Positions 49,397 to 56,318 of a stretch of DNA of 64,000 bases are shown here, in pieces. Below the pieces are notes generated by a model. The model saw nothing but the letters and a program-made list of their open reading frames with translations, had not been told where the DNA came from and searched no databases. How positions within the stretch are numbered: the stretch's first letter is position 1; every line of letters starts with the position of its first letter. Where the stretch lies: contig JANXOF010000095.1 of the NCBI GenBank assembly GCA_025353725.1, positions 124,001 through 188,000 on the forward strand, read 5' to 3'. The position numbers and the translations under genes were made by a program. The stretch is from Polyangiaceae bacterium. Its GTDB lineage: Bacteria; Myxococcota_A; Polyangia; Polyangiales; Polyangiaceae.

Positions 49397-50971
49397 ATGC
49401 TGCGCGGCGCGCTTTCAACACGCATGCGGTCAAAACGCACCTACCCCCCACCCTTTCCTGTCCTGTGGCTCGCCGCAGGAGGCCTCGCATCGATCTCGCT
49501 TGCGGACGCCACGGCGTCGGCTTCCCCGCCCGAGCTCCTCACGGAGACGGCTGCGCAGTTCTACGATGTTCGCAGCCCGTCGGGTCAGAGTGTCCTCGCG
49601 CGGCGACGACTGATGACCACCCTCGGAGTCGGTGTCAACGACCTCTTGGTGGCGGACCGTTCCGCCAACCCAAACGGTGCGACTCTCTCGTTTCGCGCCC
49701 GCCTTCGCTACGACGCAGACTACGGCGGAACAGCGGGTGAGACCGATCAGGCGAACGCTGGGAGCGTCATCCCCGGGTTCGAACGGGGTCCGGTGGACAT
49801 CATGTACGGTTACGTCGAGGGTCGCCGGTTTCTCGGAGGGTGGCTCGGGTTCAAGGTCGGTCGTCAGTACGTGGTCGACGCACTGGGCTGGTGGTCCTTC
49901 GACGGTGGTCAAATCAAGATCACGACGCCGTACTATGTGGCCGCGGAGGTGTACGGAGGCCTCGAGCAGCGGAGCGGCATGCCGCTTTCGACACCGCGCT
50001 ACGAGCGCGATGGAGTGTGGCGAGGCGATCGAACGGGCTACGACCCGTCACTTTATCCGTCGTTTCAACCGAGTGACGTAGCTCCGGCTTACGGCGCGGC
50101 GCTCGAGAGCGCGGGTTCGACGTGGTGGCACGCGCGCCTTGCGTACCGCCGCGTTGACACGACCGGACCTTCAAACGTTTCGTCGTTCGCGAACGGCACC
50201 CGCGCGGCGGCGAGCTATGACAGGACTCGGCTCTCGCAGGAGCGAATCGGTGTTGGAATCGACGCGACGTTTGGTGAGTTTGGCGGACTAAAGGCAGGGG
50301 TCGCCTACGACGGGTATCGAGGACACGTCGCAAACGCCTTTGCATCGTTAGATACTTATGTATCGACCGCGCTCACGGTTAGCCTCGACTATGAGTACGA
50401 CGTTCCGACGTTCGACGCCGATTCAATATGGAACTTTTTCCTTGCCATGCCGCTGAATGACCTAGGTCTGCGAGCAAACTGGGACGCCACCTCTCGCTTC
50501 TCGTTGTCGACCAGCGCTCGGGCGCGCGCGTTCGCGGTTCAGACAGCGAACGAAAGTGCCAATCAAGCGCCAAATAACAACGACCTTTCAAAGGCCAACT
50601 TTTTCCCGAAAAGTAGCCTCGATGTAATGGGCGGCGCAAACGCGAGCGCCCGCTACCGATTCGGGGATGGCGCATTCGGTGCGCGCGGCAGTGCTGACTT
50701 TGCGAGTACCGGTCAGCGGCTAGGCTTGGATATTTACGGTGAGCGCACACTCGAATCGCGCTACGTCGTGAATGCACGCGCCGGAATCTGGCAGTGGGAT
50801 GACCAGCAACGGCTCGATCGGGACGCCGTTAGCTTTCAATACGTGGCCGGTGCTGGCTACAAGGTTGCGCCACGCTCTCTCCTGTTCGTCGACTTTGAAC
50901 ACGACATCAACAGACTCGTCGGGCACCGCTTTCGCGGAATGCTTTGGCTCTCGCTCGCGGTGACAAAGTGA
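49397..50971 (+). CDS. Outer-membrane beta-barrel (porin-like) protein
   Basis: 524 residues. The signal peptide ends near ATASA (about residue 42); an in-frame ATG at 49424 would give a tighter signal. The mature chain alternates aromatic and polar residues in many short strands (SFRARLRYDADYGG, GWLGFKVGRQYVVD, AYRRVDTTG, TALTVSLDYEYDV, MLWLSLAVTK at the end), the signature of a 16-or-more-stranded barrel. The GTGA overlap with a 13-heme cytochrome gene strongly suggests an outer-membrane porin-cytochrome conduit analogous to MtrB-MtrA, though at 524 residues it is shorter than MtrB. It is divergent from the kinase over 167 bases. Confidence 0.85.
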   Translation: MLRGALSTRMRSKRTYPPPFPVLWLAAGGLASISLADATASASPPELLTETAAQFYDVRSPSGQSVLARRRLMTTLGVGVNDLLVADRSANPNGATLSFRARLRYDADYGGTAGETDQANAGSVIPGFERGPVDIMYGYVEGRRFLGGWLGFKVGRQYVVDALGWWSFDGGQIKITTPYYVAAEVYGGLEQRSGMPLSTPRYERDGVWRGDRTGYDPSLYPSFQPSDVAPAYGAALESAGSTWWHARLAYRRVDTTGPSNVSSFANGTRAAASYDRTRLSQERIGVGIDATFGEFGGLKAGVAYDGYRGHVANAFASLDTYVSTALTVSLDYEYDVPTFDADSIWNFFLAMPLNDLGLRANWDATSRFSLSTSARARAFAVQTANESANQAPNNNDLSKANFFPKSSLDVMGGANASARYRFGDGAFGARGSADFASTGQRLGLDIYGERTLESRYVVNARAGIWQWDDQQRLDRDAVSFQYVAGAGYKVAPRSLLFVDFEHDINRLVGHRFRGMLWLSLAVTK

Positions 50972-52341
50972 ACACGAAGCGCAAACCGCTGTCCCTTCGG
51001 AACGCGCGAAGTGCCTGCGCGCTTGTATCGATGATCGTTCTCGCCGCGTGTACCGCGTTCGCTCAGGATCTGCCGGCACCTGCGGGGCCGCCTGCTCCAC
51101 GTTTTGACGGTGCGCTCGGCGACACCGCATCGGGTCTGGCTTTGATGTCGAGTGACGACCAAGTTCCCCTCAAATGGCTGCCTCCCGGGGCGGTGGGCCA
51201 AGGGCAGGACCGCGGGCCGAGTGAGGCGATCTTCCCCCCGCAAAGGCTTACCCTTCACTTCAATCATAACACGCATACCAAAGGCCAACACCTCCCCTGT
51301 ACGGCGTGCCACGACCGCGCGCGAACGAGCGAGTCCGTCGCGGACATTCTCACGCCCAAAGCCGCGACGTGCGATTCCTGTCACGGAACCGACCACGCGG
51401 ACCTCAACGCCGTGCGAGCTGCGACGGGAGCCGAAGCTCCCACGTCGTGCGGCTTTTGCCATGTCGGCTATCGCGAGACCGACGGAAATCGTGTGGCGAA
51501 GTTTGAACTCCCTCGCGCAAACATGGTTTTCAATCATAAAGCCCACGCCGCACGCAATATCGGCTGTCAGCAATGCCACGGTCAGGTGGAGGAGCTCGAG
51601 CTCGCTACGCGCGATCAAATGCCTCGCATGCTCGGCTGCGTCAGATGCCACCAACACCCGGATCCGGATGCGCGCGGCGAAGCGAAAGCAACGTGCGACA
51701 CGTGTCATCTCAAGAGCACGGCAGGCGACGGAGGAAGGATTCGCACGACGTTTCCGAGCGGCACGATGCACCCACAGCGATGGCTAAGGAACGCAGAACA
51801 CACGCCTGACTTCGTGCAGCGCCACAAGTACGTCGCCGCCAACGACTCGCAGTTTTGCGCGAACTGCCACAAGGAAGACTTTTGCACGAACTGCCACGAC
51901 GGTCGCGTGCGGCCGCGCAGCATTCACCCCAACGACTATTTGAGCATGCACGCCATCGAAGGGCGACTTGCCACGCAGAAGTGTACGAGCTGCCACCGCG
52001 AACAGAGCTTTTGTCTCGGCTGCCACCAGCGCACGGGTGTCTCAATGAGCGGGCCCGTGAAAGACGCGGGGAGGTTTCACCCGCCCAAGGCTGAGTGGAG
52101 TGATCCGCCCCGGCGGCCCGGACACCATTCGTTCGAGGCCAACCGCAACCTGAATGCCTGCGTGAGTTGCCACATCGAGCGCGACTGCGTGACGTGCCAC
52201 GGGGGACAGGGCATCGGCGGAGGGTTCAACCCACACCCCGGAACCTTCGCCAGCGGGTGCGGCTCGCTTCTGCGGCGAAACCCTAGGCCTTGTTACGTCT
52301 GTCACGACCCGGGTGCTCAAGCTCTAGAGCGCTGCCGATGA
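50968..52341 (+). CDS. Multiheme (13 CXXCH) c-type cytochrome
   Basis: 457 residues. The signal (SMIVLAACTAFAQ) may be cleaved at AFAQ or lipidated at LAAC. Thirteen CXXCH heme sites can be counted: CTACH, CDSCH, CGFCH, CQQCH, CVRCH, CDTCH, CANCH, CTNCH, CTSCH, CLGCH, CVSCH, CVTCH and CYVCH. Extra His residues (HFNHNTHT, FNHKAHAARN) can serve as distal ligands, as in cytochrome c3/c7-like proteins. The start GTG 50968 overlaps the barrel stop (GTGA). It is predicted to sit in or near the outer membrane and pass electrons between periplasm and surface; the direction is unknown. Confidence 0.93.
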   Translation: MNTKRKPLSLRNARSACALVSMIVLAACTAFAQDLPAPAGPPAPRFDGALGDTASGLALMSSDDQVPLKWLPPGAVGQGQDRGPSEAIFPPQRLTLHFNHNTHTKGQHLPCTACHDRARTSESVADILTPKAATCDSCHGTDHADLNAVRAATGAEAPTSCGFCHVGYRETDGNRVAKFELPRANMVFNHKAHAARNIGCQQCHGQVEELELATRDQMPRMLGCVRCHQHPDPDARGEAKATCDTCHLKSTAGDGGRIRTTFPSGTMHPQRWLRNAEHTPDFVQRHKYVAANDSQFCANCHKEDFCTNCHDGRVRPRSIHPNDYLSMHAIEGRLATQKCTSCHREQSFCLGCHQRTGVSMSGPVKDAGRFHPPKAEWSDPPRRPGHHSFEANRNLNACVSCHIERDCVTCHGGQGIGGGFNPHPGTFASGCGSLLRRNPRPCYVCHDPGAQALERCR

Positions 52342-52506
52342 CGAAGCGCGATTCAAAAGCCAACGCTCGTCGCCGAGTCCCATGCGCATTTCGGAAACGC
52401 AGGCCGATTCAGTGTTGCGCCCAGCGGCGCGCGACGACTATACCGGTAGACCGCAAGCCAGTCAGGCGGTTCTTTCTTAGAGCTTCCAACCCGAGCGCCG
52501 CGCGTT

Positions 52507-52524
52507 CTCACGTGCCTACGTGAG
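52507..52524. promoter_or_regulatory. Inverted repeat CTCACGT-GCCT-ACGTGAG
   Basis: Perfect seven-base arms with a four-base loop, 165 bases after the cytochrome stop and 63 before the 84-residue gene. It may be a rho-independent-like hairpin for the cytochrome operon or an operator for the next gene; no T-run follows. Confidence 0.4.
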
Positions 52525-52573
52525 CATAAATCTCCTGTCTCGGATTCTTAACTACCTACGCTTCAGCCCTTTT

Positions 52574-52580
52574 AAGGAGG
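52574..52580 (+). promoter_or_regulatory. Near-perfect Shine-Dalgarno for the 84-residue gene
   Basis: AAGGAGG six bases before GTG 52587. It is among the best ribosome-binding sites in the window and decides between this frame and the longer frame that overlaps it. Confidence 0.85.
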
Positions 52581-52586
52581 CTCCCC

Positions 52587-52841
52587 GTGAAAGACCTCGT
52601 GCGGTACCTCTTGGACAACCTCTACCTGGACTTCCAGGGGGAGATCTCCCTCGACACCGTACGCCAGTTCCTCCGAGGGGACGACAGTCGGGAGGCAAAG
52701 GCGCTCTTGCAGAAGATGATCGAAGACAAGGGAGTCGACGATCTCCTGATCGCGTTGGCAGACGTCCTCAAAGAACACCTCCGAACGGGTGTGAACGAGC
52801 AGGTCGTTCGCGAACAGCTTTCGATGTACTCGGACAGCTGA
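52587..52841 (+). CDS. Small conserved-looking helical protein, 84 residues
   Basis: 84 residues, strongly helical and charged: KDLVRYLLDNLYLDFQGEIS, RQFLRGDDSREAKALLQKM, VDDLLIALADVLKEHL. It has no signal peptide, Cys or membrane helix, so it is a cytosolic helical bundle or coiled coil. A near-perfect AAGGAGG site precedes GTG 52587, which makes it a real and probably well-translated gene. A much longer frame (52520-53956) overlaps it in another register; its first 100 residues look like an artefact. I do not recognise the family. It lies between the cytochrome gene and a cytochrome-like lipoprotein. Confidence 0.8.
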   Translation: MKDLVRYLLDNLYLDFQGEISLDTVRQFLRGDDSREAKALLQKMIEDKGVDDLLIALADVLKEHLRTGVNEQVVREQLSMYSDS

Positions 52842-52909
52842 GGTCAATTCTCGGTGCTGCTCCGAACTTTCGGAAGAGCACCGTACTTCTCTGGCGGTCT
52901 CTCTCGGGT

Positions 52910-53956
52910 GTGTCGTCGATTTTCTGGGTCCTTAGTTGTGACGTACCTCCTACGGGGCGCGAGTCGCAATTTAGGACGGGGCAACTACGTCACTCATTAG
53001 CGATCACGGCGGCAAGCGTAGGTCCTCTAAACCCGCTGCCGTTTAATGGCGACATCAAAGTATCCTTCAATCGATACCTTCTGCCATCGACCGTGAATCG
53101 TCAGTCCTTTTTTCTTTTAGACAGCCTGAATAAGCCACTTCCAGCTTCGAAAGCGCCCCGCGTAATCTACGATCCGGTCGGGCGAACCGTGACGCTTAGC
53201 CGTCCTTCCGACGACTGGCTGGCAGAGGGTCTTTCTTACAAGTTACGTCTGCCTCGCCCTGAAGGCGACACCGAGCAGAGTGGTGTGCGCGCGATAGATG
53301 GGACTCCCTTGGGAGCCGACCAGCTGACCGACGTCGCGTTTCAGGTCGGGCCACCCGTTGTCTCGCCTCCGGACGTCCCGGTGAGTTTTTGCCGGGATGT
53401 GCTCCCGGTGTTTGCCTCAAAGTGTAGCCGTTCCGCATGTCACGGGAGCGGACGAGACTCCGCTGCCGGCCTTGTCCTCGAAACGAGTACCGGCGTCGCT
53501 CTCACTGCGCTCAACCGCATTGCCCAAGGGTCGAATACGGGGCCGCGCGCAACGAGCCCGCCTGCCCCCGGTCGCGTCTTCGGTGTTGATATGCCAATTA
53601 TCGACCGCGGCGATCCCGGCAATTCGTGGCTCGTCTACAAGATGGAGCTTGTGCGGCCGCCGGTGGTGCCGTCTCCAAGTCCGGGTTACGTGTGCGACCT
53701 CAGCCTAGGACAGAGTGCGAAGCGGTCCGCTTACACGAGTCTTGCGTCTGAAATTCTTTTGACAGAGGGGCCGGAAGAGCGGTCGATTCTTGGAGACATG
53801 ATTCTCGGCCGAGAAATGCCTTTCCCGATGGCCGTCCCGAGCGGATACGTAGATGAGCCGCTCACGTTTGAAGAGCGAGAGACTGTGCGCTTGTGGATCC
53901 GAGACCTCGCGCCAGGCGATTCTGTGCCCGAATGCGGCCGGTGCAGCCCGCGTTGA
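52910..53956 (+). CDS. Secreted cytochrome-like lipoprotein (CX4CH) with Ig-like domain
   Basis: About 348 residues from GTG 52910; a longer frame continues upstream but overlaps the 84-residue gene. The N-terminus SSIFWVLSCDVPP holds a short hydrophobic segment and a lipobox-like LSC. An Ig-like domain follows (GDIKVSFNRYLLPSTVN, VTLSRPSDDWLAEGLSYKL), then FCRDVLPVFASKCSRSACHG, where CX4CH resembles the heme-binding region of the CSSAACHG-type proteins of Myxococcota and planctomycetes. The C-terminal part has two to three further Cys. A start problem is likely: no good ATG precedes the signal. It may be an outer-surface partner of the cytochrome conduit. Confidence 0.68.
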   Translation: MSSIFWVLSCDVPPTGRESQFRTGQLRHSLAITAASVGPLNPLPFNGDIKVSFNRYLLPSTVNRQSFFLLDSLNKPLPASKAPRVIYDPVGRTVTLSRPSDDWLAEGLSYKLRLPRPEGDTEQSGVRAIDGTPLGADQLTDVAFQVGPPVVSPPDVPVSFCRDVLPVFASKCSRSACHGSGRDSAAGLVLETSTGVALTALNRIAQGSNTGPRATSPPAPGRVFGVDMPIIDRGDPGNSWLVYKMELVRPPVVPSPSPGYVCDLSLGQSAKRSAYTSLASEILLTEGPEERSILGDMILGREMPFPMAVPSGYVDEPLTFEERETVRLWIRDLAPGDSVPECGRCSPR

Positions 53957-54005: not shown

Positions 54006-54962
54006 TCAACCGACCACACGGTTCCGGCCAGCATTCTTTGCGGCATACAAGTTTTTGTCGGCCATCTCATAGAGCATCTGCGGGGACGTGACACTCGCGT
54101 CAAAGGAGATGACGCCAACGCTTACCGTGCAGCCGAACTCCTTGGTCTCGACGAGAAACCGCGCAGACTCAACAATCGCGCGAACCTTGTCTGCGGCGAT
54201 GCGCGCACCGGTGCTCTCAACTTCCGGCAAAAGCACGGCAAACTCCTCGCCGCCGACGCGCGCGAGGCAATCTTGCTGACGCAAGCGAGGCTTCACGACA
54301 AGCGCGAGTTGCCGCAGCACGCTGTCTCCCGCCACGTGACCGTACGTGTCGTTGACAACCTTGAAGTGGTCGATATCGAAGAGAATGAGTGAGAGCGCGC
54401 GCCGATAGCGAAGACTTCGGTTGTACTCGCGTTCGAGCGCTTCGTTGAAGTAACGCCGATTGTGAGTCTGCGTGAGGGCATCCATCGTCATGAGTCGATA
54501 GATTTCTTCGTGGTAGTTCGCCTCGATATTGTCGCCCGACATGTACTTGAGAATCGAGCGCCCTACCTTCACCTGATCACCATCGACGAGGGCCTGGCGC
54601 TTCGTACTCACATCGTTGACGAACGTGCCGTTCGTCGAGCCCAGGTCTTCGATCACGTGGCGTTCCCCGTCGAACGTAATGCGCGCGTGGTTACGGCTGA
54701 TGCTCTCTTGATCGATGGGTAGGTCCGAGCGAGAAGAGCGCCCAATCTCGAACGTCGCCTGCGCCAGCGGTGCTCGCTTACCGAGCTCAGGCCCGTAAAT
54801 GACCACGAGGCACGCGCGCCCTTCGCTCTTCGAAACCTGGCTTATCCTGGCCAAGTCGACGGCAGTAACCCGCTCGAACATCGCATCGGGCGTGAGGCGG
54901 CCGTCAGGCTTTTCACTGATCGCAACAGGCGGACGGACAAGCCGTGGGTCTTTCGGGTCCAA
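54006..54962 (-). CDS. FHA-GGDEF diguanylate cyclase
   Basis: 318 residues. An FHA domain (about 48-140) has FEIGRSSRSDLPIDQESISRNHARI split over GRSSRSD and SISRNHARI, and LGSTNGTFVND. The GGDEF domain has MDALTQTHNRRYF, LILFDIDHFKVVNDTYGH, active site GGEEF preceded by I-site RQQD five residues upstream, and ADKNLYAAKNAGRNRV. All key residues are present, so it should make cyclic di-GMP and be product-inhibited. The FHA part implies control by a Ser/Thr kinase. It converges with the cytochrome-like lipoprotein gene (49 bases). Targets such as pili or exopolysaccharide are plausible but not shown. Confidence 0.94.
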   Translation of the reverse strand: MDPKDPRLVRPPVAISEKPDGRLTPDAMFERVTAVDLARISQVSKSEGRACLVVIYGPELGKRAPLAQATFEIGRSSRSDLPIDQESISRNHARITFDGERHVIEDLGSTNGTFVNDVSTKRQALVDGDQVKVGRSILKYMSGDNIEANYHEEIYRLMTMDALTQTHNRRYFNEALEREYNRSLRYRRALSLILFDIDHFKVVNDTYGHVAGDSVLRQLALVVKPRLRQQDCLARVGGEEFAVLLPEVESTGARIAADKVRAIVESARFLVETKEFGCTVSVGVISFDASVTSPQMLYEMADKNLYAAKNAGRNRVVG

Positions 54963-55000: not shown

Positions 55001-56107
55001 TCAGATCGCAACTTCTGTAAGCGTGATCTTCGTCCGGTCGCTCACTCCGAGGCCGAGGTCAGACGCCGCGCGAATGTATGCCGGCTCGCGCCCCGCTTCG
55101 GTCAGCGTCTTGAGCTTGAGTTCCGCGCGGAGTTTCTCCACAACCTCCCACCCGATCGTGTCCATCGCGACCGCGTCAGTACTCGCGTAAACGGCCTCGT
55201 GTGGCTTGACCATTTCGGGCCGCTTCCAGAGTGGGCCGCCGTCGGCCATGACCTTGAAGCCGTCCGCAATGTTTAGTCGAACGCGACTCTTGATGACGTC
55301 TTGGGCATACATCTGTGCGATCTGCGGGCTCGCGTGATGCACGTGAAAGTCATGCGGGTTGATGCTGCAGCCGTGGGTCATGTTCTTGAGCTGGCCCGTG
55401 TACCCACAAATGGAGTGATCTTTGATGAGCGCAAAGTTTATCGCGCACGTGGCCTCGGTCAGGTATCTCGTGAACTTGGTACTCGTTCCGGTGCCTGGAA
55501 TGAGACGGTAGTCCATCGTCGCATTGCCATTGCCGTGCGTGACAACTTTGATTCCCGCGGGGACGTTCCCGGCGTTGATTCGTGTTCCGGCGAGAAATTC
55601 GCCATATTGCTCGAGCACAGTGATGTTTGCGGCAGGCACCCCCGCCGCGATGAGCGCCTCGAGAAACGGAAGAACGAGCTCCTTGTTGGTGCCCATATTC
55701 TGCTTGGCAATGCCATTGACCTTGACGCAGACAATATCGTCCTTGTGAACGAACTGCTGAACGGCCGTGACAAGGTCGGGCTTTCCCGTGAGTTCCGTCA
55801 GAGCTTTGGTCAGCATCTCCCTCGCCGCATCGGGCTTCGGGTACAGCTGATTGGCTTGAAGGCAATCCTTCTTCGTGACTTTGACGACTTTGCCGGGAGC
55901 CGCGAACGGCGCAAAGCCCGCTGGTGGCGAAGCGGCGAGATTCTTCGGCGGAGCCCCTGCAAACGCGTCTCGTGAAACGAGCGAAGCTGCCGCGGTCGCG
56001 GCGGCCGCTTGACCGAGATGACCGAGGAAAGCGCGCCGCCCAAGTCCTGGGGTGAGCTCTTGCTCGATACGTGCAATGTGCAGTTTTTCGTCGCGACGAT
56101 CGGCCAT
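55001..56107 (-). CDS. Tat-exported DUF362-domain protein
   Basis: 368 residues. A twin-arginine signal (GRRAFLGHLGQAAAATAAASL) lies near residues 22-42. The DUF362 domain shows VCVKVNGIAKQNMGTN, VLPFLEALIAAGVPAANI, LIKDHSICGYTGQLKNMTHG, IADGFKVMADGGP and STDAVAMDTIGWEVVEK. DUF362 proteins are often ferredoxin-linked and lie in electron-transfer loci. No CxxCxxC cluster is seen here, so it does not carry its own FeS centres. The start at ATG 56107 has GGAGAG six bases upstream; the frame continues to 56197. It is divergent from the comEA-like gene. Confidence 0.88.
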   Translation of the reverse strand: MADRRDEKLHIARIEQELTPGLGRRAFLGHLGQAAAATAAASLVSRDAFAGAPPKNLAASPPAGFAPFAAPGKVVKVTKKDCLQANQLYPKPDAAREMLTKALTELTGKPDLVTAVQQFVHKDDIVCVKVNGIAKQNMGTNKELVLPFLEALIAAGVPAANITVLEQYGEFLAGTRINAGNVPAGIKVVTHGNGNATMDYRLIPGTGTSTKFTRYLTEATCAINFALIKDHSICGYTGQLKNMTHGCSINPHDFHVHHASPQIAQMYAQDVIKSRVRLNIADGFKVMADGGPLWKRPEMVKPHEAVYASTDAVAMDTIGWEVVEKLRAELKLKTLTEAGREPAYIRAASDLGLGVSDRTKITLTEVAI

Positions 56108-56318
56108 GAGAACTCTCCGCTTCGGTGTCTGCCAGCCTGTAGGCCTAGCACGTGCCCGCGCGGGTAGACAAACGAGGCCGAGGGGTCTCGGATGCACGGG
56201 CAGAACTCAAACGTCCCAGGACAGGGGAGGCGATGTACTCGACATGGGGACACGCGGGCAAAACGCCAAGATTTCAGGCCGATTCGTGTTGGCTCGAAGG
56301 TCGCATTCGACGAGAGCA

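Follow-up and report, generated by a model that had tools for sequence, protein, structure and literature searches.

A candidate outer-membrane electron conduit was analysed in a Polyangiaceae bacterium of the Myxococcota. The DNA studied, called the window here, is a stretch of 64,000 nucleotides (positions 124,001 to 188,000 of contig JANXOF010000095.1, assembly GCA_025353725.1) from a 6.6-Mb draft genome of 98 contigs. In this window a gene for an outer-membrane beta-barrel overlaps a gene for a 13-heme c-type cytochrome, and the two are followed by an open reading frame (ORF) of 84 amino acids (aa) and a gene for a monoheme lipoprotein. The features are as follows:

49397-50971, plus strand: barrel gene, 524 aa (an alternative ATG at 49424 gives 515 aa), with signal peptide
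50968-50971, plus strand: GTGA, 4 bases shared by the barrel stop and the cytochrome start
50968-52341, plus strand: 13-heme c-type cytochrome, 457 aa, with Sec signal peptide
51256-51717, plus strand: N-terminal hexaheme module of the cytochrome, ActA-related, motifs at residues 111, 135, 161, 200, 224 and 243
51718-52338, plus strand: C-terminal heptaheme module, motifs at residues 297, 306, 339, 349, 398, 407 and 442
52587-52841, plus strand: conserved 84-aa ORF between cytochrome and lipoprotein, a neighbour gene
~52910-53956, plus strand: monoheme lipoprotein, GTG start (uncertain), lipobox ..VLSC-D, cytochrome c-like end
53423-53443, plus strand: CX4CH of the lipoprotein, replaced by CXXCH in roughly one third of relatives

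The barrel ORF ends in GTG ACA AAG TGA and a cytochrome start is possible at GTG 50968, giving a 4-base overlap that suggests translational coupling of the two genes. A first-pass annotation, made by a model from the letters alone, had described this GTGA overlap and counted thirteen CXXCH sites in the second gene; both were found as described, the overlap at 50968-50971 and the motifs numbering exactly 13. Its third gene, a lipoprotein with CX4CH and an Ig-like domain starting near 52520, held only in part: the lipoprotein and its CX4CH stood, the start did not (the gene reads from about 52910), and the Ig-like match (Big_5, E 0.03, 15.5 bits) fell below the Pfam cut-off of 23.6. The separate 84-aa ORF was missing from that annotation's gene list.

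The same annotation took the first gene for an outer-membrane barrel, and AlphaFold2 modelling with a 69-row alignment gave a barrel of 22 strands across residues 37-512 without a plug domain (mean predicted local distance difference test score 84.8, predicted template-modelling score 0.79). With Foldseek, most of the solved structures matched by this model were outer-membrane barrels (E from 2e-9), and the best VIA match had a Z of 17.2 and a root-mean-square deviation of 4.3 with 390 residues aligned; such matches support the modelled barrel fold and are silent on function. No Pfam or NCBIfam family was matched by the window barrel. Among 69 barrels, namely this one and 68 relatives, weak general Pfam matches were to OMP_b-brl (five), Alginate_exp (one) and Phage_tube_2 (one), and the NCBIfam scan returned no match. 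When strand alternation was used to define two sides, which were assigned by hydrophobicity, conservation was 0.681 on the lumen side and 0.584 on the lipid side, and none of 5000 per-strand label swaps was as high. The charged residues facing the lumen comprise 19 Arg, 15 Asp and 9 Glu. To judge from the strand count of the model, the barrel would be wide enough for a cytochrome.

The signal peptide of the cytochrome has a cleavage site, read by eye, at ..TAFA|Q. A LAAC in the signal peptide raised the possibility that the cytochrome is itself a lipoprotein, and this was rejected for the window's branch, where the Cys is not kept and the AxA site is (by eye). The 13 motifs are not chance occurrences, because an alignment of 25 orthologues, the most distant 38% identical, keeps all of them, the sole deviation being a CX3CH at one motif in locus L051. 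In 59 orthologues twelve histidines outside the CXXCH motifs are invariant (residues 100, 103, 190, 193, 278, 286, 320, 328, 371, 386, 387 and 423) and H143 is kept at 90% or more; together these residues make up the number that 13 bis-histidine hemes would need. The two halves of the protein differ in kinship. The hexaheme half is akin to ActA of alternative complex III (ACIII), with phmmer matches to four ACIII chains at E values from 7e-14 (6lod) to 7.2e-8, and the kinship also emerged from a profile search; its identity to the ActA copy of its own genome is 30% over 149 columns. The heptaheme half matched only the general families Paired_CXXCH_1 and, below cut-off, Cytochrome_C7. When the cytochrome was modelled alone, much of the first half was confident and most of the second poor. 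A plasmid search with the cytochrome yielded 15 records, each matched only in the first half (residues 46-270).

Conservation of the pair was followed in several samples. A near set held 58 genomes, the window's own and its relatives, of which 43 have a cytochrome orthologue (called strong at E 9e-50 or better) and 15 do not (best match 2.3e-19 or worse). A named set comprised 80 of 139 cytochrome relatives confirmed by contig scan, 79 of them with upstream sequence, and a phylum set of 377 genomes spread over the Myxococcota gave 128 listed cytochrome places at E values up to 4.3e-39. We found that in 79/79 named loci with upstream sequence a barrel lies directly upstream on the same strand, four of these barrels being cut by a contig end; the 4-base overlap recurs in 73 of the 79, and the cytochromes carry 13 CXXCH in 76 cases and 12 in three. 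Forty distant loci, 37 with upstream sequence, were read closely. They had been picked with the barrel and cytochrome match lists both in view, and G242, whose pair is on different contigs, was omitted; all 128 listed places were therefore compared with the barrel list. The first comparison gave 110 barrels directly upstream, five on another contig and 13 places without a listed barrel. Among these last 18, the barrel adjoins the cytochrome in six (G252, G088, G332, G107, G134 at L143 and G189 at L179), a piece of it stands at the contig end in two (G302, G390), barrel and cytochrome start sit together on the other contig in G396 and G129, and the sequence breaks off at a contig end in eight (G165, G208, G240, G242, G125, G180, G306, G050). 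The barrel thus adjoins the cytochrome at 120 of the 128 places, and the remaining eight reach a contig end. Separated pairs were looked for at the 79 named and 128 phylum places and none was seen among the informative ones; the neighbourhood survey that had been proposed for the pair accordingly found the two genes together at 79/79 and 120/120 informative places.

The barrel profile matched 121 of the 377 phylum-sample genomes. The titles of the 80 kept relatives are all myxobacterial or 'deltaproteobacterial', and the nearest named ones are metagenome-assembled genomes under the names Myxococcales, Labilithrix and Polyangiaceae, after which come Sorangium, Polyangium and Minicystis, in agreement with the 'myxobacterium-like' host that had been guessed from the letters. 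Named carriers include Sorangium cellulosum (So ce26, So0157-2, So ceGT47 and So0008-312), Polyangium fumosum, Minicystis rosea and Labilithrix. Across 69 loci, barrel and cytochrome distances correlate at 0.85, and at 0.76 once the distances of the 84-aa ORF are removed.

The distant loci revealed that the cytochrome occurs in two forms. In 37/37 informative loci the barrel is upstream on the same strand, with a 186-base gap before the cytochrome at L161 and a barrel split over two frames at L186. The 13-heme form is present in 23 of the 37 (two with one CX3-4CH in place of CXXCH), and in the other 14 only the heptaheme half is found (L142, L144, L161, L178-L186, L192 and L193). A lipobox was seen by eye in nine of these 14, so proteins that lack the hexaheme half may be anchored in a membrane. 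A tree built from the heptaheme part requires four changes of the heptaheme-only label, three of them forced by well-supported branches, and these are not necessarily all losses. Because paralogues of a sister clade match both halves, we take loss of the hexaheme half to be the likelier direction, on a tree whose root is not fixed. As some barrels are accompanied by seven hemes only, the foremost candidate for the part that lies within the barrel is the heptaheme half, which is likely to be the barrel insert.

The sister paralogues are 34-38% identical to the cytochrome over most matches and form one clade with support of 100/99. A distantly related barrel is upstream in all 16 sister loci read (L162-L177, for example L163:4313-6939 and L169:3904-6499), as judged with a profile built from three of them. 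The cytochromes there have 12-13 hemes, and frames with 23 to 34 CXXCH are present in 14 of the 16, so that by sequence these loci look like full extracellular electron transfer clusters. The cytochrome search detected no sister-clade paralogue in the window's own genome. Readthrough or selenocysteine was considered for paralogous cytochromes flagged with an in-frame TGA or TAG and was rejected for the one that was checked (L165), where the stop is the natural gene end and the match overruns it by a few bases.

We then considered the monoheme lipoprotein. Its C172, C177 and H178 do not vary among 34 relatives, of which four matched PSCyt1 and six Big_5. Of 68 copies with a motif, 47 have the CX4CH spacing and 21 have CX2CH, and four of 72 examined have none; because the two spacings interchange, the heme site is supported as real. 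A conserved Met-Pro, together with a Trp-Ile towards the end of the protein, presumably recalls class I cytochrome c. In 63/64 loci with room for it, the gene follows the cytochrome at a distance of no more than 1.5 kb. A profile built from conduit-linked copies detected it in 43/43 near-set genomes with the cytochrome, the weakest hit being that of G052 (1.6e-9, beside the 84-aa ORF), and, with at most 40 candidates scored per genome, in 0/15 without it if two weak partial hits, one in G006 (4.3e-9) and one in G013 (2.7e-8), are disregarded. The latter are near the value of G052 and were set aside, as they cover part of the profile only and are located elsewhere. In four genomes lipoprotein and conduit are on different contigs. 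Among 72 loci (L061-L140), Asp occupies position +2 in 61/64 detectable lipoboxes of the lipoprotein; the lipoboxes of all called ORFs at the same loci, which may include copies of the lipoprotein gene, have it in 4/67. An inner-membrane anchor on the periplasmic side is thereby made somewhat more likely than a surface position. As a separate observation, this +2 Asp might be an instance of a lipoprotein sorting rule in myxobacteria.

The 84-aa ORF is present in 52/58 near-set genomes (own included), 52-92% identical in relatives, and matched no Pfam family and no NCBIfam model over cut-off. It is probably not part of the conduit, being kept in 10/15 genomes without the cytochrome. That the lipoprotein is a mere neighbour of this ORF is thought unlikely. 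Ten ORF loci without the cytochrome were read, three of which (L203, L204, L210) end too near the ORF to count, and 0/7 informative ones have the lipoprotein; conversely, it is present at 4/4 ORF loci whose genome's conduit sits on another contig.

The pair was compared with known conduits. Like MtrAB and its relatives (MtrDE, PioAB), it would have a barrel holding a periplasmic multiheme cytochrome, and it differs in having 22 strands, not the 26 given for MtrB in the available passages of PMC12133095, and 13 hemes, not 10. The family MtrB_PioB (PF11854) was matched by neither the window barrel nor its 68 relatives, and no NCBIfam model was matched either. Genome-wide, MtrB_PioB was absent from the own genome and was matched once among the others of the 58-genome set (G014:C25, E 3.6e-5), in a genome whose conduit is on C129. 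The cytochrome likewise failed the MtrA/DmsE decaheme model TIGR03508 (18.8 bits against a cut-off of 192.2). MtrB was absent among the fold matches listed for the barrel and MtrA among those listed for the cytochrome, which is uninformative either way. The suggestion of the first-pass annotation that the pair is a lineage apart from MtrAB is therefore upheld by family, strand number and heme number.

Other conduits were compared by description only. The pcc porins are given 18-22 predicted strands and the pcc cytochromes 5-14 hemes (PMC4245776). The two-gene pcc clusters of Anaeromyxobacter, a member of the same phylum, and of Kuenenia combine, as far as described there, a porin-like barrel with one periplasmic cytochrome and no outer-membrane multiheme partner, as does the window's pair; they have 12 or 14 hemes, and the length of their cytochromes is 338-344 residues (Shi et al. 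2014, PMC4245776) against 457 in the window. The sister clade (for instance L169, a 360-aa frame with 13 motifs) looks closer to these by size. In Geobacter, ExtA and ExtG have 12 hemes and ExtE 21 strands according to the excerpts of PMC6148476 and PMC7399161. The clusters OmbB-OmaB-OmcB, ExtABCD, ExtEFG and ExtHIJKL, as described in the parts available, also pair a barrel with a periplasmic multiheme cytochrome and add multiheme outer-membrane lipoprotein cytochromes, in contrast to the monoheme lipoprotein of the window. A survey used MtrB, OmbB, ExtB/E and ExtI barrels as baits for conduits, as its excerpt states (PMC7399161), and an activated-sludge secretome survey reports multiheme proteins in Myxococcota generally, the passages available containing nothing of this pair (PMC11495043). 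In open-licence PubMed Central literature no paper was recognisable, from titles, abstract starts and passages, as describing a barrel/13-heme pair, and among papers naming Sorangium and extracellular electron transfer none was, by title or abstract start, on such a system in Sorangium. The pair has the architecture of a conduit, and its barrel matches no family in the libraries searched; with OmbB, ExtB/E, ExtI and the Anaeromyxobacter pcc it was compared by description only. The ActA-like hexaheme part joined to a heptaheme part, and the lipoprotein, appear distinctive of it; the hexaheme half is homologous to ActA, and the matched ActA chains do not have the heptaheme half.

Collectively, these data indicate, with a probability that we put at about 0.8, that the overlapping genes encode a porin-cytochrome-type outer-membrane electron conduit in which the heptaheme half plugs the barrel and the lipoprotein is a partner. 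The heptaheme half of the exported cytochrome would sit in the 22-strand tube as both plug and heme wire, the ActA-like hexaheme half would reach into the periplasm and exchange electrons there, and the nearby monoheme lipoprotein would be a dedicated partner that helps this periplasmic exchange. Insertion of the heptaheme half into the barrel, complex formation, electron transfer, its direction and the partners outside are what we infer. A possible source of electrons is ACIII or its acceptors. The own genome has an operon (G000:C13, L212:898-7877) that encodes QrcA-, QrcB/QrcC- and DsrP-like subunits and, after them, a protein with a cytochrome c domain; we call this operon ACIII-type by its architecture, all matches being below curated cut-offs; the ActA copy of the genome is encoded with these ACIII-type subunits, away from the barrel.

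Several points weigh against this interpretation. No multiheme surface cytochrome adjoins the pair, which has only the monoheme lipoprotein beside it, and a NapC/NirT (CymA-type) donor was looked for in the own genome and none was found. Several carriers are known as aerobes. The charged, conserved lumen also fits an ordinary porin, the model of the heptaheme half by itself is poor (block means of 41-62 for residues 271-420), and the wider 25-row alignment of the cytochrome leaves only 10 outer histidines invariant. The correlation of barrel and cytochrome distances is only partly freed of shared ancestry. Absence of the lipoprotein from genomes without the cytochrome is soft, since 8/15 of these exceeded 40 candidates and 4/15 are less than 85% complete, and G027, counted among them, has a barrel at a contig end.

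Alternatively, the cytochrome could be a periplasmic electron store or an ACIII accessory and the barrel an ordinary co-transcribed porin, as the ActA kinship of the N-terminal half and the resemblance of the barrel to many ordinary barrels would allow; pairing at every informative place, the 4-base overlap, the 22 strands without a plug and the retention of the heptaheme-only form with a barrel all argue against this, and we consider it the least probable of the alternatives. The conduit may instead be real and run inwards, carrying electrons from outside Fe(II), Mn(II) or reduced organics to the periplasm, as proposed for Mto/Pio. The carriers are mostly aerobes, which favours such a direction. 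Iron-oxidiser conduits without a surface multiheme partner are known, according to the available part of PMC7096707, and the window pair likewise has none. The 23- to 34-heme frames of 14/16 sister loci, taken as more typical of export, point the other way; sequence cannot give direction, and we regard inward flow as somewhat unlikely.

A conduit might also serve a specific extracellular enzyme and not minerals, in the manner of DmsEF, which feeds a surface dimethyl sulfoxide reductase. There are polymer degraders among the carriers, and no giant surface cytochrome stands beside the window's branch, both of which suit an enzyme. Against this, the 84-aa ORF and the lipoprotein are the sole neighbours that most named loci retain (63/64 each). 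The other gene families, not annotated singly, occur in 31 loci or fewer, and a rarer enzyme partner might be among them; such a role seems distinctly improbable.

Within the favoured interpretation of an outer-membrane conduit, a complete chain can be drawn speculatively, and as a whole it is unlikely. Electrons would pass from ACIII to the lipoprotein, held at the inner membrane by its +2 Asp, then to the ActA-like head and along the heptaheme tail through the barrel, the head being an ActA-type domain that was joined to a heptaheme plug and lost more than once. If this chain is true, normal quinol oxidation in aerobic myxobacteria is linked to an inherent extracellular electron outlet (or inlet). 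Most work on porin-cytochrome conduits has concerned metal reducers and iron oxidisers, and myxobacteria are mostly thought of as oxygen breathers. The gene pair described here is widespread in the Myxococcota, with named strains of Sorangium, Polyangium and Minicystis among its carriers, and if it works as proposed it would provide an extra redox route for predatory, polymer-degrading soil bacteria. Furthermore, natural variation appears to split a barrel-bound seven-heme segment from a dispensable extension, and how many hemes are needed to cross the outer membrane thereby becomes a testable question.

Two further genes follow the lipoprotein in the window: 54006-54962 encodes an FHA-GGDEF diguanylate cyclase and 55001-56197 a DUF362 protein whose leader is twin-arginine-like. 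Where these two genes are again found next to the conduit, it is mostly in near relatives.

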